Shown here: piece after piece, positions 3,150 through 62,732 of the stretch
Numbering within the stretch: position 1 is the first letter of the stretch
Layout: each line of letters opens with the position of its first letter
Made by a program: the position numbers and the translations under genes
Assembly: GCA_937899415.1 (NCBI GenBank)
Contig: CALBPI010000056.1
Coordinates: forward strand, 1-64,000
Direction of reading: 5' to 3'
From: an uncultured Gammaproteobacteria bacterium
GTDB taxonomy: Bacteria; Pseudomonadota; Gammaproteobacteria; Steroidobacterales; Woeseiaceae
DNA: 64,000 nt
Notes under the pieces: model-generated
What the model was told of the DNA's origin: nothing
What the model saw: only the letters and a program-made list of their open reading frames with translations
The model's database searches: none

Positions 3150-3770
<621 letters not shown>

Positions 3771-3776
3771 TTCGCC

Positions 3777-4595
3777 CTAGTGGCGCGCGTCGAGCCACTC
3801 CGTCATCTCGGCCAGCACCTCGACCTGCTCAGGCTCGTTGAAGATCTCGTGCTTGAGCCCCGGCCACATCTTGATCGTCTTATCGGTCGCGGCCGCTTCC
3901 TGGTAAACGAGTGTTGAGCCTTCGGGCGCCGTGAGTTTGTCTTCGCTGCCGTGCATGAGCAGCATCGGCAGCTCGAGGCTCCGGGCACGTTCTCGCAGAT
4001 CGGCCATGGCGTCGAAGATCGCCACGACAAGGCCGGCGGGCACCTTGCCGTTGTAGACGAGCGGATCGTCGAGATAGGCCTGCACGACATCGGGGTCGCC
4101 GCTGATCTCATTCGAATCCAGCGCCAGCGCGCCGAGACTCGGTGCCACGCGCGCCAGAAACCGCACAATGGCTTCCTGCCAGGCGGGCGGCGGATCGGGC
4201 GCGATGACGGCCGGGCCCGAAAGGACCAGCGCCTTGAAGCGATCCTGCTCGCGCAAGGCCGTGAGCGCCGCGATGAGGCCACCCATGCTGTGCCCGAGCA
4301 GCGTCACGGGCAGGCCCGGCAGGGCGACGCGTGCATGACGGTCGAGCTCAAGCATGCCCTCGATAAGGATGTTGAAGTCGTAAACACCACCGCGCTTACC
4401 CGGCGACTGGCCATGGCCCGCGTGGTCAACGGCAAACACGGCGTAACCGGCCTGGGTCAGCGCTTCAGCGACGTGCGGGTAGCGCCCGCTGTGCTCCGCC
4501 AAGCCGTGCGCGATGAGTACGATGGCCTTGGGCGATTCAGGCCGCCACGACTGCCAGACGAGCCGCGATTCGAGCGTGCCGGATTCGTGCTGCAT
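3777..4595 (-). CDS. Alpha/beta hydrolase, monoacylglycerol-lipase-like (S33)
   Basis: Predicted serine hydrolase on small lipids such as monoacylglycerol or lysophospholipid. The full catalytic triad is visible: S103 in GHSMGG, D219 in MHGSEDK and H249 in GLKHEIFNE. The early HGLAEHSGRY motif is typical of the monoglyceride lipase/serine aminopeptidase group. 272 residues, full length, no signal peptide. Its ATG overlaps the stop of the HAD/PlsC fusion by one base (TGATG), so the two are probably translationally coupled and act in lipid turnover. The true substrate cannot be read from sequence. Confidence 0.85.
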   Translation of the reverse strand: MQHESGTLESRLVWQSWRPESPKAIVLIAHGLAEHSGRYPHVAEALTQAGYAVFAVDHAGHGQSPGKRGGVYDFNILIEGMLELDRHARVALPGLPVTLLGHSMGGLIAALTALREQDRFKALVLSGPAVIAPDPPPAWQEAIVRFLARVAPSLGALALDSNEISGDPDVVQAYLDDPLVYNGKVPAGLVVAIFDAMADLRERARSLELPMLLMHGSEDKLTAPEGSTLVYQEAAATDKTIKMWPGLKHEIFNEPEQVEVLAEMTEWLDARH

Positions 4596-6022
4596 CAGTC
4601 CTGCTCCAAAGCCACAAGGAAGCGCTGTCGCACTTCGGCCACGTGCGCGTCCATGGTCTCGGGGGTCCAGTCGCTGGTGTCGACGGGCTCGAGCACCGTG
4701 ACGCCCACGGTGGCCGGGTGGAACAACAGGTCACCCTTGGGCGACACGTCGAGGGCGTTGCGAATCACGATGGGCACGATGGGCACACCGGCCTGTTGCG
4801 CGAGGTGGAACGCGCCCTTCTTGAACGGGCCGAGCCGTGTCGACACGGTGCGCGTACCCTCGGGCGCGATGACGACCGACTTGCCCTCGACACGAATCGT
4901 GTCGACGAGCCGGCGCATGGACTCGACGGCCTTGGTCGCGTCACTGCGGTCGATCATGACCGTGCCCGCAAACTGCATGATCTGACCCAGCACGGGCACC
5001 TTGCCGATTTCTTTCTTGCCCACGCCCGCGAGGTCGCGGCGCAGCAGGCGCGCGATGATCACGACGTCGGCCTGGCTCTGGTGGTTAAACACAAACACCG
5101 CCGGGCGGTGTTCCCAGAGATGCGATTCGCCTTCGACATCGAGGTTGAGCCCGATGAACGCGCTGGCCACGTCGGCGAACAGGCTCATTGAGAAGTTGAG
5201 CCCTTCCTGCTTCGACCCCGTCAGCGCCCAGATGGGCAAACCCGCAAGGAACGAGGGAATCATGCTGCCCGTGGCCGCGGCCGTGCGCAGCAGGTCCGTC
5301 GGGCGCGGGCGACCGCGACTTGCGAAGCGACGTACGGGCCAGCCGCGTTCCTCGGACGCCTCGACGAGTTTCGGGTTCGGGTTCAGCGGCCGCGGGTTAC
5401 CCACCCGATCGAGCAACGGCAGGTCATCATTGCTGTCCGAATAGAAGTAGCTCCGGTCCAGGTCGAGCCCGTGTTCGGCCGCCAGCGTCTCGGCTGCGGT
5501 GACCTTGCCTTCACCCCAGCACGTCGGTCGCACGATCTCGCCTGTGAACACACCGTCTTCCGATTCGAGCTCGCTGCAGAGCACATGCTCGATGCCTAAG
5601 ATCTCGGCGGCGTCTTCAACCTGAAACCGCGTCGCCGAGGACACGATCGCCACCGTGTGGCCGCGCTTCTGGTGCGCCTCCACCAGTGCGCGCGCCTCGG
5701 GGTAGATCACCTTGGCGATGTGCTTTTCGAAGACCTCGCGGCCCAGCGTCTCGAACTGCTCAACGGTAAGCCCGCGCATCATTCGGGCACTGGCGACGAG
5801 TAAGCCCGAGAAGCCCAGGTTGCCCATGCCGTAACCGGCGCCTGCGGCGGCCAGCTGCATAACTTGTCCACGCGACAAGTCGCCGCGCAGTAACTGCTCG
5901 CGGAAAAACGAGAACACGGAAAAGCCCGCGATCAGCGTGCCGTCGAAATCGAACAGGGCGGCGATCTCAGGGCCTTTCGGGGCCTCATCGATCTCGCGCG
6001 TGATCTTTCGGTAGAGCTTCAT
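4595..6022 (-). CDS. Two-domain HAD-IB phosphatase / PlsC-type acyltransferase fusion
   Basis: 475 residues. Residues about 18-230 form a HAD-IB phosphatase (DFDGTL with D25 and D27; SSAT near 128-131; SDSNDD at 195-200), like SerB-type enzymes. Residues about 265-475 form a 1-acylglycerol-3-phosphate acyltransferase (NHQSQAD with H314 and D319; EGTR at 388-391). The architecture is known from actinobacterial and proteobacterial proteins annotated as fused phosphoserine phosphatase/acyltransferase. A role in phosphatidic acid or lysophospholipid remodelling is inferred; the HAD substrate is unknown. An upstream in-frame start would add 76 residues of arginine/serine-rich translation without domain content, so the ATG at MKLYRK is preferred. 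Coupled to the downstream lipase. Confidence 0.88.
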   Translation of the reverse strand: MKLYRKITREIDEAPKGPEIAALFDFDGTLIAGFSVFSFFREQLLRGDLSRGQVMQLAAAGAGYGMGNLGFSGLLVASARMMRGLTVEQFETLGREVFEKHIAKVIYPEARALVEAHQKRGHTVAIVSSATRFQVEDAAEILGIEHVLCSELESEDGVFTGEIVRPTCWGEGKVTAAETLAAEHGLDLDRSYFYSDSNDDLPLLDRVGNPRPLNPNPKLVEASEERGWPVRRFASRGRPRPTDLLRTAAATGSMIPSFLAGLPIWALTGSKQEGLNFSMSLFADVASAFIGLNLDVEGESHLWEHRPAVFVFNHQSQADVVIIARLLRRDLAGVGKKEIGKVPVLGQIMQFAGTVMIDRSDATKAVESMRRLVDTIRVEGKSVVIAPEGTRTVSTRLGPFKKGAFHLAQQAGVPIVPIVIRNALDVSPKGDLLFHPATVGVTVLEPVDTSDWTPETMDAHVAEVRQRFLVALEQD

Positions 6023-6035
6023 GGGCGTGTGCGTC

Positions 6036-7196
6036 TCAGTCCAGGGCGTCGAGCGCCTGCGTGAGATCGGCGATGAGGTCATCCGCGACTTCGATGCCAA
6101 CCGACAGGCGCAGCAGGTTATCAGGAATCGGGCTGTCCGGACCCTCGATCGTCGCACGGTGCTCGACGAGGCTCTCGACGCCGCCCAGCGACGTCGCGCT
6201 CGCAAACAGGCGCAATCGCCCGGCGACGGCGAGCGCTGCGTCGCGGCCACCGCGCACCATGAACGAGAGCATCGAGCCGAAGCCGCCTCGCATCTGCTTC
6301 GCCGCGACCGCGTGCCCGGGATCGTCAGCGAGACCCGGGTAGCGCACGCGCTCGACCTGGGGATGCGCCTGCAACGCCTCGGCTACGGCCAAAGCACTCT
6401 CGCTCGCGCGACGCTGGCGCAGGAATAGCGTGCGCATGCCCCGCTGCAACAGCCAGGCCTCAAACGCACCACACACGGCACCGCCCTCGCCGCGCTCTGT
6501 GGCGATGCGCCCCCAGAAATCGTTGCGCTCGCGGCAGACGAGCGCGCCCGCGAGCACGTCGCTGTGACCGTTGAGCGCCTTGGTTGCCGCATGCATCACG
6601 ATGTCGGCGCCGAGCAAGATGGGTTGCGTGTGCACGGGCGTGGCCACCGTGGAGTCCACGGCCAGCATCGCGCCCGCGGCGTGCGCAAGCTCTGCCGCGC
6701 GCGCGAGATCGGTCGTGTCCCACAGCGGGTTTGAAGGCGTTTCAACCCAGACCAGCCGCGTGCCGGGCGTGATCGCCAACGCCAGCGAATCGGGGTCCGA
6801 GGTCACGTAGGTCACGCGCTCGAGGCCCCAGGTTTCAGAGAAGGTCGCGATCCAGTGGCGGAGCCCCCAGTACATGACGTCGGGCACGACGATGCGGTCG
6901 CCGGGCGCGAGCGCACGAAACACGGCCGTGGCCGCCGCCATGCCCGAAGCGAACAGCAAAGCGTCCGCGCCCGCTTCGAGCTCGGCGAGCATGCGCTCGG
7001 GCACGCGGTAGGTGGGGTTTTCGTCGCGCGAATAGCCCACGCCAGGATCGGGCAGCGCGTACTCCGTGTCGCGTGCGTAGGTCGTGGCCAGGTGGATGGG
7101 CGGTATCACGGCGCCCGTCTCTTTGTCTGCGAAATGCAGGCCCGACGCGATGCGCGATTCCAGCGCGGCGTCGTGGTCGTCAGTGTCTTTGGCCAT
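6036..7196 (-). CDS. PLP-dependent transsulfuration enzyme (cystathionine gamma-synthase/beta-lyase family)
   Basis: Cys/Met metabolism PLP enzyme of 386 residues. The cofactor lysine is K206 in ATKALNGHSD; other family marks are the YSRDENPTYRVPE segment, FASGMAAAT and VETPSNPLW. These separate it from aspartate aminotransferases but not cystathionine gamma-synthase from beta-lyase or gamma-lyase. It lies 36 bases downstream of bchH and 13 bases upstream of the HAD/PlsC gene on the same strand, so it may be co-transcribed with both. No metabolic link to bacteriochlorophyll is obvious. Confidence 0.85.
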   Translation of the reverse strand: MAKDTDDHDAALESRIASGLHFADKETGAVIPPIHLATTYARDTEYALPDPGVGYSRDENPTYRVPERMLAELEAGADALLFASGMAAATAVFRALAPGDRIVVPDVMYWGLRHWIATFSETWGLERVTYVTSDPDSLALAITPGTRLVWVETPSNPLWDTTDLARAAELAHAAGAMLAVDSTVATPVHTQPILLGADIVMHAATKALNGHSDVLAGALVCRERNDFWGRIATERGEGGAVCGAFEAWLLQRGMRTLFLRQRRASESALAVAEALQAHPQVERVRYPGLADDPGHAVAAKQMRGGFGSMLSFMVRGGRDAALAVAGRLRLFASATSLGGVESLVEHRATIEGPDSPIPDNLLRLSVGIEVADDLIADLTQALDALD

Positions 7197-7232
7197 CGCG
7201 CGAGTATACGCGAAGCGCTTGGGCGGCCCGCG

Positions 7233-10200
7233 TCAGGACGCGGCTTGCGGCGTGATGCCCTCGACGCGGTCTTCGAGCTCTTCAGTGGCCGCTTCGAGCG
7301 CGGCCAGCGTGTCGGCGTCGGGCTGCCAGAAGTTGCGGTCCGAGGCTTCGAGCAGACGGTTGGCAAAGCGGCTCGACGCGGTGGGGTTGAGCGCAGCGAT
7401 GCGCTCGCGCATGGCGTCGTCGAGCACGAAGGTTTCCGTGAGCTTCTGGTACACCCAGGGCTGCACCTGGCCCGTCGTTGCCGACCAGCCCATCGTGTTC
7501 GTCATGTGCACTTCGATCTGGCGCACGCCCTCGTAGCCGTGCTCGAGCATGCCCTCGTGCCATTTCGGGTTGAGCATGCGCGTGCGGGTTTCGAGTGCGA
7601 CCTGCTCGCTGAGCGTGCGCACCGTGCCCTCGCCGCGCGTCTGGTCGCCGATGTACACGGGCGGTGCGTCACCGCCGCGGGCGCGTTTCACGGCACCCGT
7701 GATGCCGCCCAGCGTATCGAAGTAGTTATCGACGGTCGTGACGCCCAGCTCGATGGAATCGAGGTTCTGATAGGTCAGCGAGACGTCCGCGAGCGTGGCG
7801 CGCAGCAAGGCACTCTGCGCCTGCGGCCGACCATCGCAGCCGTAGGCGAAGCCTTTGCGGCGCGAGTAGGTTTCGGCGAGCTCTTCTTCGTCGCCCCAGC
7901 GGCCACTTTCGACGAGGAAGTTGACGTTGGAGCCGTAGGCGCCGTCCTCGTTGCCGTAGACACGCAGCGCCGCCGTCTCGAGCGAGCAGCCGTGTTCGGC
8001 CTGGTAGGCCAGTGCATGTTTGCGAATGAAGTTCTGCTCGACGGGCTCATCGGCGGCCGCGGCGAGGTAGGCGGCCTCGGCCAGCAACTTGATTTGCAGC
8101 GGCATGAGGTCGCGGAAGATGCCCGACAGCGTCATGACGACATCGATGCGCGGTCGTCCGAGGTCTCCGAGCGGCACGAGCTCGGCGCCCGCGATACGGC
8201 CGTAGCTGTCGAAGCGCGGCACGGCACCCATGAGCGCGAGCGCCTGCGCAATCGGACCGCCTTCGCTTTTCAGGTTGTCCGTGCCCCAGAGCACTATGGC
8301 GATCGACTCGGGCAGTGCCTCGCCAGACGCGGTGTGGCAGGCCAGCAGGCGGTCGGCCTGACGGCGGCCGTCCTGTACGGCGTAGTTGCTCGGGATGCGG
8401 AACGGGTCGAAGCCGTGCAGGTTGCGACCCGTCGGCAACACCTGCGGGGTGCGCAGCACGTCGCCACCGGGCGCGGGTGCAATGAAACGCCCGTCGAGTG
8501 CGTGCAACAGTGCCGTGGTTTCACTGTCCTCGCCCAGCAGCTGGTCGTAACGCGCCAGCTCGCGGAACATACTGGGGCCGTCCTGACCGGCCGGCAGCCC
8601 GGCCAGACGCGCGGCGCGCTCGGGGTCGAGCCCGTCACCCACAAGTGCCTGCAAAGATGCACGCGCGGGTGTCACGCCGTAAGCCGCATCGGCCATCGCT
8701 GAGAGCAGGTCGACACGCTCTTCCACGTCAGGCGGGCGGCCCACAATGTGCAGGCCGTGCGGGATCATCGTGTGTTCGAGTTCGAGCAGTGCGTCGCGCA
8801 GCGTGCCAATGCATGCATCCCAATCCGACTCGGTCCATTCCGGACTCGCATCGCTGAGCTCGAGCTCGGCCGCCTGGGCCTGGATCAATGCCGCGAGCTC
8901 GGGGTCGGCGACGGCGTTGGCGTCGCGGCTGCGCCAGCGTTCGATCGAGTCGTTGAGTTCCTGCAGACCGCGGTACAGGCCGGCTTCTGCCACGGGCGGT
9001 GTCAGATAGCTGACGAGTGTCGCCGCGGCGCGGCGCTTGGCGATGGCGCCCTCGGACGGGGTGTTGGCGGCGTAGAGGTAGTAGTTGGGCAGGTCGCCAA
9101 TGAGTCGTTCGGGCCAGCAGGCACCCGACATACCCGTCTGCTTGCCGGGCATAAACTCAAGCGCGCCGTGGGTACCGAAATGCAGCACGGCGTTGGCCGC
9201 AAAGTCCTCGCGCAGGAACCGGTAGAACGCCGAGAATGCGTGCGTCGGCGCAAAGCCGCCCTCGAACAGCAACCGCATGGGGTCACCTTCGTAACCCATG
9301 GCGGGCTGCACAGCGACGATCACATTGCCAAATTGCTTGCCGAGACCCAGCAGCTTGTTGCCGTAGGTCAGGTGGCGGCCAGGTGCGGGCCCCCACTGCG
9401 ACTCGATCTCGGCCAGCCAGGGCTCGCGGCGCACGTGATCGTCGGCATCGATTTCGAAACAGACGTTGGCGTCGGCGCCGTACTGGGCTCGGTTGCCTTC
9501 AATCACGGACTCACGCAACGCGTCGGCGTCCTCAGGCAGGTCCTCGACGCCATAGCCCGCCTCACGCATGGCGGTCAGCGTGTTGTGCAGGGAACCGAAG
9601 ACATCGAGGTACGCCGCTGTACCCGTGTTGCCCGCGTTAGGCGGGAAGTTAAAGAGCACGATGGCGACTTTGCGCTCGGCGAGCTTCGCGCGGCGCAGCG
9701 ACACGAGCTTTGCGATACGCGCAGCGAGCATGCCGGCGCGCTCGGGGCAGCTCGACATGTCCTGCGGATTGTCGTCCTCGGTAAATGTGCAGCCGCGCGA
9801 GCAACCCGCGCAAGTGACGCCTGGCGCGCCCGCACGCCCGCCGAACACCGTGGGTGCGGTCGCACCATCGAGTTCAGGGATGGCGACCATGATCGTCGAC
9901 TCAACGGGACTCAAACCCCGCTCGGAGCCGCCCCACTGATCGAGTGTTTGAAACTCAACGGGGTGCGCCGCGACGTAGGGCACATCGAGCTTCTTGAGAA
10001 TCTCTTCTGCGGCGGCCGCATCGTTGTAGGCGGGACCACCCACGAGCGAGAAGCCCGTCAGCGACACCACGGCGTCGACGACCACCTGGTCGTCGTGCAT
10101 GAAGAACTGCTCGATGGCGGGTCGCGCATCAAGCCCCGAGGCAAAGGCCGGTACGACCTCAAGCCCCCGCGATTCGAGCGCCGCGATGACGCCGTCGTAA

Positions 10201-10970
10201 TGCCCGGCGTTGCCACCCAGCAGATAGGACCGCAGCATGAGCACACCGACGCGACCCGACTTGGCGGTACCGCGTGGCAGCTTGGGCAAGGCGCGCAGAT
10301 CATCGTGGATCCGACCCTGCATGCGCGGGTGGTAGAGGCCAACGTCGGGATAGGCTACGGGGTCTTCAGCGGGCGCCAGCTTCTGCGTTAGCGCTTCGCG
10401 TTTTCCGGTTGCGTAGCGGCTGGCGAGATAGCGCACGAGATTGGCCATATTCTCGCGCGAGCCACCCAACCAGTATTGCAGTGTCAGGAAGTAGGCGCGG
10501 ACGTCTTGTGCTGTGCCCGGAATAAACCGCAGCAGCTTGGGCAGACGTCGCAGCATACGCATCTGCGCCGCCCCGCCGGTCTGTGCCTTGTTCTTGTTGC
10601 CGCGCAGCTTCTTGAGCAAGGCCATGGGGCCCGAGGCCGGCTTCGACATATCGAAGTCGCCCATCTTCGTGAGCACCGTGACCTCACTGGCCGACATCGC
10701 ACAGATAACGGCATCGCACTGGCCGCGCTTGGCCGCGATGTCATCGATCAGCGGTTTGAAATGGTCTTCCATGAACAACATCGTCACGACGACGATGTCT
10801 GCCGCTTTGATGTCGGCGCGGCACTGATCCAGCTTCGCGGGGCTCGCGCTCCACTCCGACGCAGCGTGCAACGACAGCCGCAGGCCCGGACACTCGCGCG
10901 CGAGATCCGCGGCCGCATTCTGCGTCGCTGTGGCCAGGTGCGTGTCCATCGTGACGATGACCACGCGCAT
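7233..10970 (-). CDS. bchH: Magnesium chelatase subunit H (bacteriochlorophyll synthesis)
   Basis: Porphyrin-binding subunit that, with BchI and BchD, inserts Mg into protoporphyrin IX, the committed step to bacteriochlorophyll. 1245 residues, the family size. The N-terminal BchH-type domain begins MRVVIVTMDTHLATA. The CobN/BchH core holds HFGTHGALEFMPGKQ and YYLYAANTPSEGAIAKRR, which match BchH better than CobN. Cysteines C387, C390, C394 and C408 form a CxxCxxxC...C set; an Fe-S cluster has been reported for a purple-bacterial BchH. An upstream start would add 38 unrelated residues. No other bch, crt, puf or puh gene lies in the window, which is unusual. Two PpsR/CrtJ-like boxes lie upstream, suggesting repression by oxygen or light. 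CobN is the main alternative and is judged unlikely. Confidence 0.92.
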   Translation of the reverse strand: MRVVIVTMDTHLATATQNAAADLARECPGLRLSLHAASEWSASPAKLDQCRADIKAADIVVVTMLFMEDHFKPLIDDIAAKRGQCDAVICAMSASEVTVLTKMGDFDMSKPASGPMALLKKLRGNKNKAQTGGAAQMRMLRRLPKLLRFIPGTAQDVRAYFLTLQYWLGGSRENMANLVRYLASRYATGKREALTQKLAPAEDPVAYPDVGLYHPRMQGRIHDDLRALPKLPRGTAKSGRVGVLMLRSYLLGGNAGHYDGVIAALESRGLEVVPAFASGLDARPAIEQFFMHDDQVVVDAVVSLTGFSLVGGPAYNDAAAAEEILKKLDVPYVAAHPVEFQTLDQWGGSERGLSPVESTIMVAIPELDGATAPTVFGGRAGAPGVTCAGCSRGCTFTEDDNPQDMSSCPERAGMLAARIAKLVSLRRAKLAERKVAIVLFNFPPNAGNTGTAAYLDVFGSLHNTLTAMREAGYGVEDLPEDADALRESVIEGNRAQYGADANVCFEIDADDHVRREPWLAEIESQWGPAPGRHLTYGNKLLGLGKQFGNVIVAVQPAMGYEGDPMRLLFEGGFAPTHAFSAFYRFLREDFAANAVLHFGTHGALEFMPGKQTGMSGACWPERLIGDLPNYYLYAANTPSEGAIAKRRAAATLVSYLTPPVAEAGLYRGLQELNDSIERWRSRDANAVADPELAALIQAQAAELELSDASPEWTESDWDACIGTLRDALLELEHTMIPHGLHIVGRPPDVEERVDLLSAMADAAYGVTPARASLQALVGDGLDPERAARLAGLPAGQDGPSMFRELARYDQLLGEDSETTALLHALDGRFIAPAPGGDVLRTPQVLPTGRNLHGFDPFRIPSNYAVQDGRRQADRLLACHTASGEALPESIAIVLWGTDNLKSEGGPIAQALALMGAVPRFDSYGRIAGAELVPLGDLGRPRIDVVMTLSGIFRDLMPLQIKLLAEAAYLAAAADEPVEQNFIRKHALAYQAEHGCSLETAALRVYGNEDGAYGSNVNFLVESGRWGDEEELAETYSRRKGFAYGCDGRPQAQSALLRATLADVSLTYQNLDSIELGVTTVDNYFDTLGGITGAVKRARGGDAPPVYIGDQTRGEGTVRTLSEQVALETRTRMLNPKWHEGMLEHGYEGVRQIEVHMTNTMGWSATTGQVQPWVYQKLTETFVLDDAMRERIAALNPTASSRFANRLLEASDRNFWQPDADTLAALEAATEELEDRVEGITPQAAS

Positions 10971-11065
10971 GGCTGTCTTGCTACCCCGGACTGTGCCGTC
11001 CGCCCCCATTCGTCGCCCCGCCAAGCGAATTGTTGTGAGTCCAATGTAGGTGGCAGCGGTTCGAT

Positions 11066-11083
11066 CGTCAATAAAGATTGACA
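11066..11083. promoter_or_regulatory. PpsR/CrtJ-like box 1 (one mismatch)
   Basis: Read in the bchH direction this is TGT-N12-ACG, one base from the PpsR/CrtJ consensus TGT-N12-ACA; inside, GTCAAT and ATTGAC are a perfect 6-base inverted repeat separated by CTTT. It lies about 95 bases upstream of the bchH start. A weak promoter candidate for bchH (TAGACA, 17 bases, TATTGA; 11068-11096) overlaps both boxes, as expected for a repressor site. Confidence 0.6.
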
Positions 11084-11090
11084 CTTTGAG

Positions 11091-11108
11091 TGTCTATTTT
11101 TGAGGACA
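11091..11108. promoter_or_regulatory. PpsR/CrtJ-like box 2 (full TGT-N12-ACA)
   Basis: TGT at 11091-11093 and ACA at 11106-11108 with exactly 12 bases between; the outer TGTC/GACA bases are palindromic. It is separated from box 1 by 7 bases. Family knowledge: CrtJ/PpsR binds cooperatively to paired sites about 7-8 bases apart at bch promoters. The pairing is the main support, since a single TGT-N12-ACA can occur by chance. Confidence 0.6.
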
Positions 11109-11193
11109 ACAAAGAAATCAGTCATTTACCGGTACTGCGTCACAGCAGTTTTGGGCCCTTATGTCATAATCCGCCCGCTTTCCGGGAGCCTCC

Positions 11194-13122
11194 ATGCCTC
11201 TGATTTCTCTGCTGCCCCTGTTCGGCATCAGCCTCTTGCTCCAGCGCCGATTCGGCCTGCGGGCGGCGCTGGCGCTCATGCTGGCGGTGGCCGGGTGGTT
11301 CACCGTGGTCTACGTGGGTGGGCTCGCCGGCGTGCTCAGGCCGGTCGCCATTGGCGTCTGGGTGCTGGGCGCGCTCCTGTTTGTCGTGATGCTCCCCGGC
11401 TGGGTGGCCCAGATGCGTCGCGACGGCGTCGACATCGTCTACGCACTGTTCGCGGTGTTTTGCCTGGCGTTCTGGTTCGTGCACCACGACAGCCAGTTTT
11501 TCTACTACGACGAGTACGGTCACTGGGGCATTTACCTGCGTGACATGTGGGCGCTCGACAGCTTCTGGCAGGCCGATAGTAATGCCCGCCACCTGCGCTA
11601 TCCGCCCGCAGGACCGCTCTGGCAGTACGCATTCACCGTGTTTGCGCCGCGCGTCGACGCCAGCGCCTACATGGCGCAGTTCGTACTCCTTATCGCACCC
11701 GCCATGGTGCCGTTCGAAGGTCTGGGTTGGAAACGCCCGGGCTGGGTTATCGCGCTGACGCTGGGCGCCGTTGCCGGGCTTGCGAGCTTCGGCCACGGCG
11801 TGGCGAGCCTCTATGTCGACCACCTTGTGAGCACCTGGTTTGCGGGCGCGCTGCTCGCCTTCATGCTCGAGCGCAAGCCCTCGATTGGGCGCGTCGCCGC
11901 ACTCGCGCTACCGCTTGTCGTGCTGAGCCTGCTCAAGGATGCGGGCCTGGCCTTCACGCTGGCGGCCGCGGGCATCATCGGCGTCGTGTGGCTCGCCGAC
12001 CGCTGGAAAGACGACGGCGGCGGCCGCGCCTTGCTGACCGCGGTCGTCTGCGGCGTGCTGCTGGTCGCACCGTCGTTTGTGGCGCTTGGAAGCTGGTCGG
12101 CCAATCGAGATGCCGCGGGCGTCGTGCGCGAGACGCAGTCGTTGACTGGTGTCGTCGGCGGCCTCGTGCGGGGCGAGCGCGCGCTCGATGACGCCGCGAC
12201 GGCCCAGATTCGCGAGCGTTACCGCCGCGTTTTCATGCACCAGCAACTGGCCAAGGACGACGTCTCGGCACAGTTCAACGCGTTCAGTTTCCCCCTGATG
12301 TCGTTGTATGAGGATCGCTTCCGAGTCTCGACGGCAAGCTTCTACCTCTTGTTCGCCCTGTTCTTCCTGCTCGTGCTCGGCTTGGGCAAGCCGCGCGGAC
12401 AGACACTGCGTTGGTCGCTCTTTGCGATGGGCGCACTGGGAACGGCCGTGGCCTATTCGGCGGTGCTCTACCTGAGCTACCAGTTCGCGTTCGGGGAGCG
12501 CGGCCTGCTCGTGACCTCCTACATTCGCTACACGCATTCCGCGGCACTCGCATTGCTGCTCATCGCACTCGCGTCGCTGTCGCCCACGCACGGCCTGCTC
12601 GCGGGCACGAAACGCCTGGGCCGCGTGTCGCTGTCCACGGGCGGCGCCGCCATCGCGGCCGTGCTCGCATGGCTGTTTGTTCTCGAAACGCCCTACCTCA
12701 GGAACTTCACGGACAAGAACCCGCGGCTCGAACCACGCATTGCCGCTGAGCCGCTCATGCGCGAGATCAGAAGCTCCGTGGGCGGGCGCCGGCTCTGGGT
12801 CTACTTCCCCGTCGACCGGCCCAATGGCTTTTTGGGGCGCTTGATTCAGTTTCAACTGGCACCCACGCCGACCACCATCGAGCGTTCGGCCGAGTTCATC
12901 GCCCAGCCCAACGAGACGCTGGCCGCCGCGCTCGCCGACTACGACGTGCTCTGGTTCCCCGTGAGCAATGCCGACACGGATGCACGCGTCGCCGCGGCAC
13001 TGGGCGTCGAGCTCAATGGGCGGTTTGTGGAGACACTCGACAACGGATCGGGGGACGCAGCATTCCGGCTCTACGAGTTTCGTCGCACACCATCAAACCC
13101 GGCTGAAGAAGGCGGCGACTGA
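11194..13122 (+). CDS. Polytopic membrane protein, probable GT-C-type glycosyltransferase
   Basis: 642 residues with about ten or more hydrophobic segments in the first three quarters and a soluble C-terminal part of about 130 residues. An early loop contains FYYDEYGHWGIY, an acidic pair after the first helices as in GT-C enzymes that use polyprenyl-phosphate sugars, followed by RYPPAGPLWQY. CGGGAG stands at ribosome-binding distance before the ATG. The next gene encodes a GtrB/DPM1-type polyprenyl-phosphate glycosyltransferase, so the pair could make and transfer a lipid-linked sugar to a surface polymer or protein. The GT-C call is inference; I do not recognise the exact family. Confidence 0.6.
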   Translation: MPLISLLPLFGISLLLQRRFGLRAALALMLAVAGWFTVVYVGGLAGVLRPVAIGVWVLGALLFVVMLPGWVAQMRRDGVDIVYALFAVFCLAFWFVHHDSQFFYYDEYGHWGIYLRDMWALDSFWQADSNARHLRYPPAGPLWQYAFTVFAPRVDASAYMAQFVLLIAPAMVPFEGLGWKRPGWVIALTLGAVAGLASFGHGVASLYVDHLVSTWFAGALLAFMLERKPSIGRVAALALPLVVLSLLKDAGLAFTLAAAGIIGVVWLADRWKDDGGGRALLTAVVCGVLLVAPSFVALGSWSANRDAAGVVRETQSLTGVVGGLVRGERALDDAATAQIRERYRRVFMHQQLAKDDVSAQFNAFSFPLMSLYEDRFRVSTASFYLLFALFFLLVLGLGKPRGQTLRWSLFAMGALGTAVAYSAVLYLSYQFAFGERGLLVTSYIRYTHSAALALLLIALASLSPTHGLLAGTKRLGRVSLSTGGAAIAAVLAWLFVLETPYLRNFTDKNPRLEPRIAAEPLMREIRSSVGGRRLWVYFPVDRPNGFLGRLIQFQLAPTPTTIERSAEFIAQPNETLAAALADYDVLWFPVSNADTDARVAAALGVELNGRFVETLDNGSGDAAFRLYEFRRTPSNPAEEGGD

Positions 13123-44444: not shown

Positions 44445-45832
44445 GCCGCGCGCCTCCGTGTCGTGAACGCAATACTCAATGCGACACCCAGGGGTAGGAG
44501 CCGTTCGACCCAGTCGCCGGGCGTGTTGGGAAGCGCGTTGGCGACAACGGTCAGCCCAAAGCCACCGAGCAGGACGGCCAGTGTCGCTGACGGCGTCAGC
44601 TGCCAGTCGCAGAGCCGGGCGACGAGCAGCGGCCCGAAAGCGGAGCCCAACGCGTGCCAGGCGAACAGCACACGCGAGAAGATATCTGCGGGGACAAACA
44701 AGGCGATGGCCGTCGCCGTGCTGGCAAGCGCGATGACCACGACGCGCGCGAGGCGCGGTGCGTCTTCGGCAGAGGCGTTCTCGCCGCGCCAGTCATGCGC
44801 AACCGCCGCCGCTGCGGCCAGCAACTGGCTGTCCGCCGTCGACATAATCGCCGACAACACGGCCGCGAGCGCGACACCGCCAATGACGGGCGGCAGCAAT
44901 GCCGATGCTGCGACGAACAAGGCCTGCTCGCCATCAGGAACGGTGGCGTACAGCGCGCGCGCGGCGAGCCCCAGTGCGAGCATGCCCGTGTAGACGACGA
45001 GCGCCCAGCCAATCGCGATCGCGCGACCCCGTCGCAGCGCCGCCTCGTCAGACAGCGCCATAAACCGATTCACCACGTGCGGCTGCCCCGGATATCCGAG
45101 ACCAATGCCGAGCGTACCCAGGACGAAGGCGATCCCCAGTACGCCGGGCTGGTCGCGAACGATCGACCCGGACAAGGCCGCATCCCAGGCCGCCGGCGTC
45201 GCAGATGCCGCCGCCACGGCGACGACCGGCAACACCACGGCGACGAGCATCATGGCAAGCGCCTGGAGTGCGTCGGTCACACTCACAGCCCAAAAACCAC
45301 CGACCAGCGTGTAGAGCATGACGATACCCGCGCCGATGAGCACGCTGGCCTCTTGCGACCAGCCGAAGTTGGCGGCAAACGCCTTGCCCGCTCCGTCGAA
45401 TTGGGCAGCGATGTAGAACAAAAAGCAAAAGCAGATGATCAAGGCTGACACGCGCAACAGCGGCAGTCGCGCCGTGCCCAGCGATGCGGGCAACACGACT
45501 TCGGATAAGGTGAGTTCGCCGCCTTCGCGCGCCAGTCGACGCAGCCGCGGTGCAATCACAAGCCAGTTGAGCAGGAAGCCGCCCAGCGTCGCTGGAAACA
45601 GCCACAGTGCCGAGATTCCCCAGGCGTAGGCGGCACCGCTGACACCGAGCAACGTCCAGGCCGAAGAAGAACTCGCGCTGGCCGACAGGCCCGCGACCCA
45701 GCCACCGAGCTTGCCACCGGCCAGCAGGAAATCATGCGCATCGCGATTACGCCGCGATGCCCAGACACCGATCCCGATGAGCAGCACGTTGTAGGCGAGC
45801 AACGTGTAGAGAACGGTGGTCTCGCGCGTCAT
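44441..45832 (-). CDS. Sodium:solute symporter (SSS family)
   Basis: 463 residues with about 13 predicted membrane helices. Family marks: FLLAGGKLGGWVAGLSASASSSSAWTLLG near the N-terminus and GYPGQPHVVNRFMAL in the middle, as in PutP-type carriers. Start is one of two adjacent ATGs; the upstream extension to 45961 would run through the divergent oxoprolinase gene. Only 16-19 bases separate it from that gene's start, so 5-oxoproline is a possible substrate (inference). Also heads the operon with the two GTPases. Confidence 0.85.
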   Translation of the reverse strand: MTRETTVLYTLLAYNVLLIGIGVWASRRNRDAHDFLLAGGKLGGWVAGLSASASSSSAWTLLGVSGAAYAWGISALWLFPATLGGFLLNWLVIAPRLRRLAREGGELTLSEVVLPASLGTARLPLLRVSALIICFCFLFYIAAQFDGAGKAFAANFGWSQEASVLIGAGIVMLYTLVGGFWAVSVTDALQALAMMLVAVVLPVVAVAAASATPAAWDAALSGSIVRDQPGVLGIAFVLGTLGIGLGYPGQPHVVNRFMALSDEAALRRGRAIAIGWALVVYTGMLALGLAARALYATVPDGEQALFVAASALLPPVIGGVALAAVLSAIMSTADSQLLAAAAAVAHDWRGENASAEDAPRLARVVVIALASTATAIALFVPADIFSRVLFAWHALGSAFGPLLVARLCDWQLTPSATLAVLLGGFGLTVVANALPNTPGDWVERLLPLGVALSIAFTTRRRAA

Positions 45833-61709: not shown

Positions 61710-62732
61710 TCAGGGCCCGCGCCGCAGCATGGATATGCCGCCCCGCAGGCTGTCGACAAGCCGCGACATCGCGCTGTCGACGGCGCCCGAGAGTCGCTGC
61801 TGCAGCGGGCGCTTGATCTCGTATTTAACCGAGAAAATATCACGGGCGTCTAACGTGTCTGTAAGCCAGGCGTCACTCGTCGTGATCTCATCTATGAGAC
61901 CCAATTCGAGCGCCTGCGTTCCCAGCCAGTGTTCGCCCGTCGCCACGCGCTCAAGGTCCAAATCAGGCCGGTATCGCGATACGACGGCCTTGAACAGCCG
62001 GTGAACGTCCTCGAGTTCTTCCTTGAGCTTGGCCCGGTCCTCGTCGGTGTTCTTGCCGAACATCGTCACCGTGCGTTTGTACTTGCCGGCCGTGACCTGC
62101 TCAAAATCGACACCCTTCTCTTCGAGCAGTCGGTTGAAATTGGGCAACTGCGCCAGAACACCGATGGAGCCCACGATCGAAAATGGCGCCGCGAGAATGC
62201 GGTCCGCCACGCAGGCCATAAGGTAACCGCCACTGGCCGCCACCTTGTCAACGGCGACGGTGAGCTGGATCCCCGCGTCGCGCACGCGCGCGAGCTGCGC
62301 GCACGCAAGACCGTGTTCGTGCACCATGCCGCCCGGATTCTCGAGCCGCAGCAACAGCTCGTCGCCCTCGCCAGCTACAGCCAGTACGGCCGTGACCTCT
62401 TCGCGCAGTGAGGCCACGCCCTGGGCACGGATGTCACCCTTGAAGTCGAGCAGGAACGTCCTGGGCCGCGACGTGTCGTCTTGCTTGTCGGCCTTGCGGT
62501 CAGCCTTCTGTTTTTTCTTGAGTGCCTTGAGCGCGTCGCCGCTCGTGATGGCCCGGCGCAGCGAACGCGCCAGGTTCTTGTACTTGTCGTTGAGCTTGTC
62601 GACGCGCAGCGTTTCGGACGGGTGTTGGCGCTTCGAGAACGCCGCCGCCATGGCGAACACGACAATAATCGCGACGAGGAAGGTCAGCGTCTTGGCAAGG
62701 AACAGGCCGTAGTCGGTGAGAAAGGTGCTCAT
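61710..62732 (-). CDS. sohB: Inner-membrane serine peptidase SohB (S49)
   Basis: 340 residues. The N-terminal helix (about 10-32) and the Lys-rich SohB-specific segment precede the S49 domain. The nucleophile is S167 in VAASGGYLMACVADRI, with a lysine from TAGKYKRT (K217 or K219) as base. SppA-like Ser-Lys protease with single domain; E. coli SohB is of the same size. It lies 17 bases after lipA and 16 before the M48 gene. Confidence 0.92.
   Translation of the reverse strand: MSTFLTDYGLFLAKTLTFLVAIIVVFAMAAAFSKRQHPSETLRVDKLNDKYKNLARSLRRAITSGDALKALKKKQKADRKADKQDDTSRPRTFLLDFKGDIRAQGVASLREEVTAVLAVAGEGDELLLRLENPGGMVHEHGLACAQLARVRDAGIQLTVAVDKVAASGGYLMACVADRILAAPFSIVGSIGVLAQLPNFNRLLEEKGVDFEQVTAGKYKRTVTMFGKNTDEDRAKLKEELEDVHRLFKAVVSRYRPDLDLERVATGEHWLGTQALELGLIDEITTSDAWLTDTLDARDIFSVKYEIKRPLQQRLSGAVDSAMSRLVDSLRGGISMLRRGP

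Follow-up and report, generated by a model that had tools for sequence, protein, structure and literature searches.

A solitary bchH gene behind paired PpsR-type boxes, outside the photosynthesis gene cluster of an uncultured gammaproteobacterium: a probable replacement of the operon copy

In contig CALBPI010000056.1 (C56) of assembly GCA_937899415.1, from an uncultured gammaproteobacterium of the family Woeseiaceae, we have identified a gene for magnesium chelatase subunit H, bchH, which stands apart from the photosynthesis genes of its own genome and is preceded by two PpsR-type boxes (Table 1). The stretch analysed, positions 1 to 64,000 of the contig, is called the window. The open reading frame (ORF) caller places the start of bchH at a GTG within the downstream box (7233-11084), and the BchH family match starts near the ATG at 10970 or possibly the one at 11009; the gene therefore occupies 7233-10970/11009 of the minus strand and is shorter than the called ORF. 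Of the span 7233-11108 given in the initial annotation, the gene part stands in this form, and the far limit, 11108, marks where the upstream box stops rather than part of the gene. The protein scored 2106 bits against NF009942 (cut-off 1166), 1597 against TIGR02025 (cut-off 829) and 1383 against NF009140 (cut-off 1300), and its top-scoring solved chain is ChlH (4zhj). Six CobN models were listed as well, each scoring under its own cut-off; a CobN identity is ruled out by these profile scores, and the full-length H subunit recognised at the outset is upheld. In a 66-row alignment, 253 columns do not vary among the 65 other rows, and the window protein retains 250 of them, a check on the whole set of such columns rather than on individual catalytic residues. 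BchH, the largest subunit, would be a working part of the enzyme that inserts magnesium into protoporphyrin IX. No other gene of the CobN/BchH family (PF02514) was found in the 3.94 Mb draft. As claimed initially, bchH has no photosynthesis gene for company in the 64 kb, none being detected by tblastn (E up to 1e-10) with 28 proteins of the photosynthesis cluster of the same genome; the same search with bchH and seven window neighbours matched only bchH and those neighbours themselves.

Table 1. Features in and around the bchH locus (window coordinates).
Feature	Position	Strand	Remarks
bchH, magnesium chelatase subunit H	7233..10970	minus	1245 aa; alternative in-frame ATG at 11009
Upstream PpsR-type box TGTCCTCAAAAATAGACA	11091..11108	minus	perfect TGT-N12-ACA
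Downstream PpsR-type box TGTCAATCTTTATTGACG	11066..11083	minus	TGT-N12-ACG, one mismatch
Sigma-70-like promoter TTGACG-N17-TACATT	11043..11071	minus	sole promoter-like site in 10900-11300
Cys/Met-metabolism pyridoxal phosphate (PLP) enzyme, cystathionine gamma-synthase/lyase-like	6036..7196	minus	PF01053, 350 bits
HAD-IB hydrolase fused to PlsC-type acyltransferase	4595..6250	minus	PF12710, PF01553, TIGR01490 and TIGR00530 over cut-off
Alpha/beta hydrolase, lysophospholipase-like	3777..4595	minus	PF12146, 247.6 bits
Divergent 642-aa protein	11194..13122	plus	across the paired boxes from bchH

The two boxes, one perfect and one with a single mismatch as first described, are separated by a 7-bp spacer, CTCAAAG on the minus strand. 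One promoter-like site was found in this upstream region against 0.1 +/- 0.4 in shuffles, and its -35 element (11071-11066) coincides with the half-site at the distal end of the downstream box. Single perfect TGT-N12-ACA boxes number 12 in the window against a mean of 7.4 (sd 3.0), with 9 of 100 shuffles reaching 12; lone boxes thus occur at chance frequency and the pair does not, so that the signal is the pair. A stringent paired pattern, TGTC-N10-GACA-N7-TGTC-N10-GACA with up to 2 of 16 mismatches, was searched across the whole 3.94 Mb with the reversed pattern as control, and occurred at four places against none. The best matches lie upstream of crtE (0 mismatches) and then of the window bchH (1 of 16); the other two have 2 mismatches each and no photosynthesis gene recognised beside them. 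With an 8-bp spacer the pattern has its sole place upstream of bchC (1 mismatch), against two places for the reversed control. When the 300 bp upstream of 111 bchH loci were scanned for box pairs (usable score in 108), a pair with at most 1 of 12 mismatches was found only at the window bchH (1) and at one other solitary bchH, L027 (0); four other loci had 3 mismatches and the remainder 4 or more.

Some further box-like sites were noted. On contig C84 a third TGT-N12-ACA site (44862-44879) lies 2 bp past the bchC pair and is followed by the 7 letters of the bchH spacer, the word common to this site and the bchH pair being 11 bp long with a chance-level E-value. That the bchH promoter had been copied from one of the promoters in its own genome's cluster was considered and rejected, as the exact words common to them are only 10-13 bp long, with chance-level E-values. 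On contig C61 (123754-123796) the paired pattern with 2 mismatches may mark an additional regulon member or may be due to chance; the gene near it encodes what we take to be an HMG-CoA-synthase/ketoacyl-synthase-type enzyme. Another pair in the window (61751-61792, 6 bp apart, 1 mismatch) has GC-rich surroundings and was set aside as probable chance.

In the portions of the cited articles available to us, here and below, PpsR sites are palindromes of the form TGTcaN8tgACA, which in several species are arranged in tandem and overlap sigma-70-type promoters (PMC2654016). Like the bchH pair, the TGT-N12-ACA-type pairs of Congregibacter litoralis (PMC2654016) and Rubrivivax gelatinosus (PMC4452267) overlap such promoters, with a spacing mostly of 7 or 8 nt in the former and of 8 or 9 in the latter; they serve photosynthesis-cluster, carotenoid or antenna promoters, whereas the window pair, 7 bp apart, precedes a bchH outside the cluster. 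One of the two sites at the Rubrivivax pucB promoter is TGT-N12-ACG, the same deviation as in the downstream bchH box (PMC4452267). Redox-dependent binding in Rubrivivax required 9-bp and not 8-bp spacing (PMC4452267), so that redox behaviour at 7 bp is not readable from the sequence. The genome has a PpsR gene, and the boxes have the published spacing and overlap a promoter; PpsR would thus be predicted to bind here and to repress bchH.

The remaining photosynthesis genes lie on another contig, C84 (58.7 kb), where PufL, PufM, PuhA, PpsR, BchI, BchD, BchL, BchM and AcsF each score over an NCBIfam cut-off. The partner BchI reaches 516.7 with TIGR02030 (cut-off 467), BchD passes NF009943 with 591.4 (cut-off 571) and misses TIGR02031 with 419.2 (cut-off 499.6), and PpsR reaches 432.7 with TIGR02040 (cut-off 275.4). 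All of the genes by which the initial annotation would have judged its split gene set (bchI, bchD, pufLM, puhA and ppsR) are therefore present, and its reading of a split set under PpsR-type control is supported, the control itself being predicted from the DNA. By similarity the order is bchP-pucC-bchG-ppsR-aerR / bchF-N-B-L-M-lhaA-puhA-B-C-acsF-puhE-bchI-D-O-crtB, followed further on by crtE-crtF-bchC-X-Y-Z and then by pufL-M; aerR, which adjoins ppsR, is assigned by similarity only. From translations and order we take the genes concerned to be bchP, pucC, bchG, aerR, bchF, bchN, bchB, lhaA, puhB and puhC, and likewise puhE, bchO, crtB, crtE, crtF, bchC, bchX, bchY and bchZ, names that are supported because the order matches that of other clusters. 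Around the cluster lie what are presumably uvrA, ssb, miaB, phoH, ybeY, lnt, leuS, hisI, cysS and holA, which we take to be a gammaproteobacterial gene order. AcsF is the oxygen-dependent cyclase, which suggests aerobic bacteriochlorophyll synthesis.

Of the usual bchFNBHLM order, bchH alone is missing on C84, and the rest of the cluster is apparently complete. The stop of bchB and the ATG of bchL are 17 bp apart, and bchH lies on C56. Neither this gap nor the foreign ancestry of bchH described below was within reach of the initial annotation. Compared with the bchFNBHLM-lhaA-puh superoperon, the other genes keep their usual order and bchH is absent from its place between bchB and bchL (PMC3176799).

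In relatives this place is usually occupied. A search of 149 relatives gave matches in 18 genomes, the window genome included. bchH is flanked by both bchB and bchL in 10 of the 10 relatives whose surroundings were fetched (6 of the same family, 4 of the same order); in G053 and G082 it is cut by contig ends and has bchL and/or bchB beside it, and the other five genomes have nothing but CobN-like or divergent matches, 28-41% identical. Among the best 80 of 439 genome-contig matches, both neighbours are present in 73 and one of the two in 3. The remaining 4 lack both: in L027 the gene is solitary, in L071 and L082 it precedes bchG, and in L099 it follows puhE. Six class-level matches comprise four in the operon and two solitary genes (G467 and G253), and a further 16 BchH-type loci of the same order (L211-L226) have both neighbours in 12 cases and bchL only in 4. 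Two more loci of that order, L227 and L228, carry a divergent BchH-like protein beside bchI.

As to the loci with other arrangements, L071 and L082 belong to Alphaproteobacteria, with bchH ahead of bchG and outside the bchFNBHLM operon; L099 is an alphaproteobacterial metagenome-assembled genome in which bchB and bchL are adjacent and bchH lies downstream of puhE, with no paired boxes in the upstream scan (best pair 4 mismatches). A full-length BchH-like protein, 34-37% identical to the window BchH, is a listed match in 14 of 42 matching genomes, all of one genus (g310) of family f10 in the same order; where its context was seen, in L227 and L228, bchI is present in both and bchD in L228. A similar 33% match stands beside bchD in L112 (G106, family f2).

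The ancestry of the window BchH is at odds with that of its pathway partners. In trees of BchH it falls in a betaproteobacterial set (support 98, starred, with 90 rows; 94 with 54 rows), on a long branch with no close donor, while BchN/B/L of the same genome group with their own family and L138 (support 100, starred). In approximately unbiased (AU) tests on 31 rows drawn from both sets, placing BchH with its own family plus L138 costs 149 log-likelihood units and is rejected (p-AU 6.6e-5), and placing BchN/B/L with the betaproteobacterial rows costs 248 units and is rejected too (p-AU 7e-51). The best BchH identity is 63.0% in the own family and 71.5% elsewhere, a gap of 8.5 points, and the excess is present in 9 of 9 segments along the protein, which argues against a local recombinant. 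Six cluster proteins (bchF, pucC, bchG, puhA, puhE and ppsR) are closest inside the family. The gene tree is thus in conflict with those of co-inherited genes, as in xenologous replacement; the direction of the transfer is one that we infer. In another genome of the class, G254, BchH stands beside that of Hydrogenophaga in the tree, which, together with the gene order around the cluster, points to a host that is gammaproteobacterial in the GTDB sense. The 54- and 66-row BchH sets were thinned by hand from the 90 rows plus L170-L175 and L211-L222; L077 was dropped as a near-duplicate, and L223-L226, being incomplete or broken genes, were kept out of the trees. The BchN/B/L set omits L027, L071, L082, L170 and L172, each with no more than one of the three genes; the genomes of L027, L172 and L170 are represented in it by L190, L197 and L207, respectively.

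Two other gammaproteobacterial lineages carry a solitary bchH, in both cases from the same broad clade as that of the window. L027, in genome G513, has a perfect upstream pair with 8-bp spacing, TGTCAAAAAGAAATTACA-8-TGTATCGAGTAGTTGACA (L027:823-866); in the same genome (L190) bchB and bchL are direct neighbours, leaving no space for a bchH, and its BchN/B/L lie near Chromatiaceae (support 88, within a set supported by 98, starred). G467 and G253, of one genus (f121), have the layout bchFNB-M with bchH and bchL elsewhere, and we infer that they are Ectothiorhodospira-like. In G467 (L229), aerR and ppsR lie next to bchF, and bchH is preceded by one perfect box, with a possible partner 9 bp off that has 2 mismatches, whereas G253 (L230) has no perfect box before bchH and no aerR or ppsR beside bchF, the only place searched for PpsR; this contrast between two genomes fits PpsR control. 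A single clade of all four solitary BchH is rejected (p-AU 6.7e-7), and a clade made up of the window BchH and the two f121 rows is compatible with the data (p-AU 0.41), which together indicate that solitary copies arose at least twice, perhaps three times. One BchN/B/L clade of the three lineages is likewise rejected (p-AU 1.2e-5).

We consider it probable that the native bchH was lost from bchFNBHLM and that a foreign copy, standing alone under PpsR, took its place. The host, a phototrophic gammaproteobacterium, would have lost bchH out of its bchFNB-H-LM operon, and the replacement, related to betaproteobacterial copies, would have come to stand alone at an unrelated chromosomal site with its own promoter of the host PpsR type, where two palindromes lie 7 bp apart and the second sits over the -35. 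When bound, under high oxygen or strong light, PpsR would cover the -35 and switch bchH off along with crtE and bchC. Its release, perhaps aided by the B12-binding AerR homologue encoded beside ppsR, would allow bchH, crtE and bchC to be transcribed, and BchH would then join the cluster-encoded BchI and BchD to insert magnesium into protoporphyrin IX.

Several points weigh against this explanation. The draft is 98.4% complete and a second bchH is thus not strictly excluded. When 12 rows of family f10 from the same order are added (66 rows), the betaproteobacterial node has a Shimodaira-Hasegawa-like approximate likelihood ratio (SH-aLRT) support of 91 and is unstarred, an operon copy of f10 (L211) also falls within the betaproteobacterial set, and proteobacterial BchH trees are reticulate. 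The groups for the AU tests were named once the trees had been seen, on hand-thinned rows and with a simple model. Eight other cluster proteins are also closest outside the family, by 0.2-5.0 points (bchM 5.0, bchL 4.2, bchB 3.4, puhB 2.0, lhaA 1.6, aerR 1.3, bchN 0.5 and acsF 0.2), and the 80 comparison loci were chosen by BchH similarity, which favours a high outside BchH identity. At 0.815, the third-codon-position GC content (GC3) of bchH nearly matches that of its new neighbours (0.82-0.84) and exceeds the 0.69-0.79 of the six cluster genes measured; any transfer or move is therefore old. As to the boxes, the reversed control exceeds the 8-bp count, so that the bchC pair contributes nothing statistically; a short inverted repeat, formed by the inner half-sites with the spacer, is flagged as terminator-like on both strands; and PpsR binding and PpsR-controlled expression of bchH are predictions from the DNA.

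These points lend themselves to other explanations. If the native bchH had simply moved out of bchFNBHLM to the window site, with no gene transfer, both the clean junction of bchB with bchL and the host-like character of the promoter would be accounted for, and the noisy proteobacterial BchH trees, together with the several cluster proteins that are likewise most identical outside the family, would be in keeping with it. Such a relocation is hard to reconcile with the rejected grouping of BchH with its own family plus L138 and with an identity excess found in every segment, and we regard it as rather unlikely. Old paralogy, in which an ancestor had both operon and solitary copies and the window lineage retained the solitary one only, is invited by solitary bchH genes of one broad clade in several gammaproteobacterial lineages and by the clade of the window BchH with the two f121 rows that was not rejected. 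We hold it to be highly improbable: among the matches listed for the 149 relatives no genome has a second such gene, fragments of one gene aside, the other listed matches being just 28-47% identical by tblastn (two surveys scored at most two candidates per genome, a weak test of two-copy genomes), and the solitary L027 nests apart, in line with the rejected clade of four.

The boxes might also be due to chance or have another role, such as a terminator-like hairpin, with bchH expressed constitutively or under another regulator. One half-site is deviant, lone boxes are at chance frequency, and terminator-like sites in the scan of the bchH upstream region number 2 against 0.4 +/- 0.6 in shuffles. 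Against this, the paired pattern is missing from the reversed control and is best at crtE and bchH, the -35 overlap is that of the published PpsR arrangement, a second solitary bchH has a perfect pair, and the genes on either side of the boxes are divergent, an arrangement in which a terminator would not be expected; we find the idea very unlikely. That contig C56 comes from another organism, by an error of assembly or binning, is scarcely credible, even though the draft is in 102 contigs and 7 kb separate bchH from the end of C56. The best listed relatives of the flanking HAD/PlsC gene (about 56-62% identity) are from genomes of the same family, along with a second copy in the window genome itself; GC and GC3 agree; the bchH boxes resemble those of C84; and minus C56 the genome would hold BchI, BchD, BchL and a reaction centre yet no BchH.

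It is tentatively suggested, as a possibility that we rate somewhat below even chances, that among gammaproteobacterial phototrophs the bchH of the operon has repeatedly given way to a lone copy from a single BchH clade, as a cassette that plugs into PpsR control. The displaced lineages would be that of the window, the unrelated G513/L027 near Chromatiaceae and the Ectothiorhodospira-like f121. bchH would then be a self-contained regulated unit passing singly between cells and plugging into the PpsR circuit of the host, and the Mg-chelatase H gene a replaceable module of photosynthesis gene clusters.

Turning to the neighbours of bchH in the window, the gene for the PLP enzyme follows on the same strand after a gap of 36 bp and the ORFs beyond overlap. 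For this enzyme the 25 NCBIfam models shown (of 49) all score under their own cut-offs. No promoter-like site was found in 3500-7400, and terminator-like sites there number 4 against 2.5 +/- 1.4 in shuffles; the PLP enzyme, HAD/PlsC and lipase genes might possibly share the bchH transcript, as suggested initially, and if so, lipid and sulfur-amino-acid enzymes would come under the bchH switch. The 642-aa protein on the other side matches no Pfam or NCBIfam family at E values up to 0.001. An empty insertion site was sought through relatives of the HAD/PlsC gene, and the window neighbours were not found in the 29 other loci examined, except for a 31%-identical Cys/Met-enzyme match in L156. There is no tRNA gene in the window to mark an insertion site.

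Parts of this arrangement are known from other phototrophs. In Ectothiorhodospira, bchH is found away from the photosynthesis gene cluster (PMC8877833, PMC13025772), as in the window genome; there bchL is excluded too (bchFNB-M), whereas the window genome retains bchL after bchB and so lacks the joint exclusion of the two genes. In the available parts of these two articles we found no discussion of bchH gene transfer or PpsR boxes for Ectothiorhodospira. In D. shibae, bchH is a single-gene replacement within the Rhodobacteraceae photosynthesis cluster, and its tree contradicts those of the other cluster genes as in the window genome; that bchH is in its normal operon place, whereas the foreign copy of the window lies elsewhere with its own promoter (PMC6052148). 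Some photosynthesis genes of L. vestfoldensis SKA53 are scattered outside the cluster (PMC3176799), and splitting as such is therefore already known. A bchH away from the cluster and a single-gene replacement of bchH are thus known separately; for their combination, a foreign gammaproteobacterial bchH outside the cluster with a closed operon gap and a paired PpsR operator, we found no description in a full-text search that left subscription journals mostly uncovered, and it appears to be new.

The prevailing view is that the genes of a proteobacterial photosynthesis cluster mostly evolve together, and 34 of 1452 genes in Rhodobacteraceae were counted as single-gene replacements (PMC6052148). 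The window case is a caution against letting a BchH tree represent the complete cluster, as is done in the legend to Fig. 5 in PMC6052148. In this genome the operon seems to have lost its gene for the first committed enzyme of the bacteriochlorophyll pathway, with a copy from outside taking over and its regulation preserved in the DNA. If this is true, even a tight cluster would be editable one gene at a time, togetherness being dispensable as long as the operator stays, and the window genome would offer a natural test of co-location versus co-regulation.

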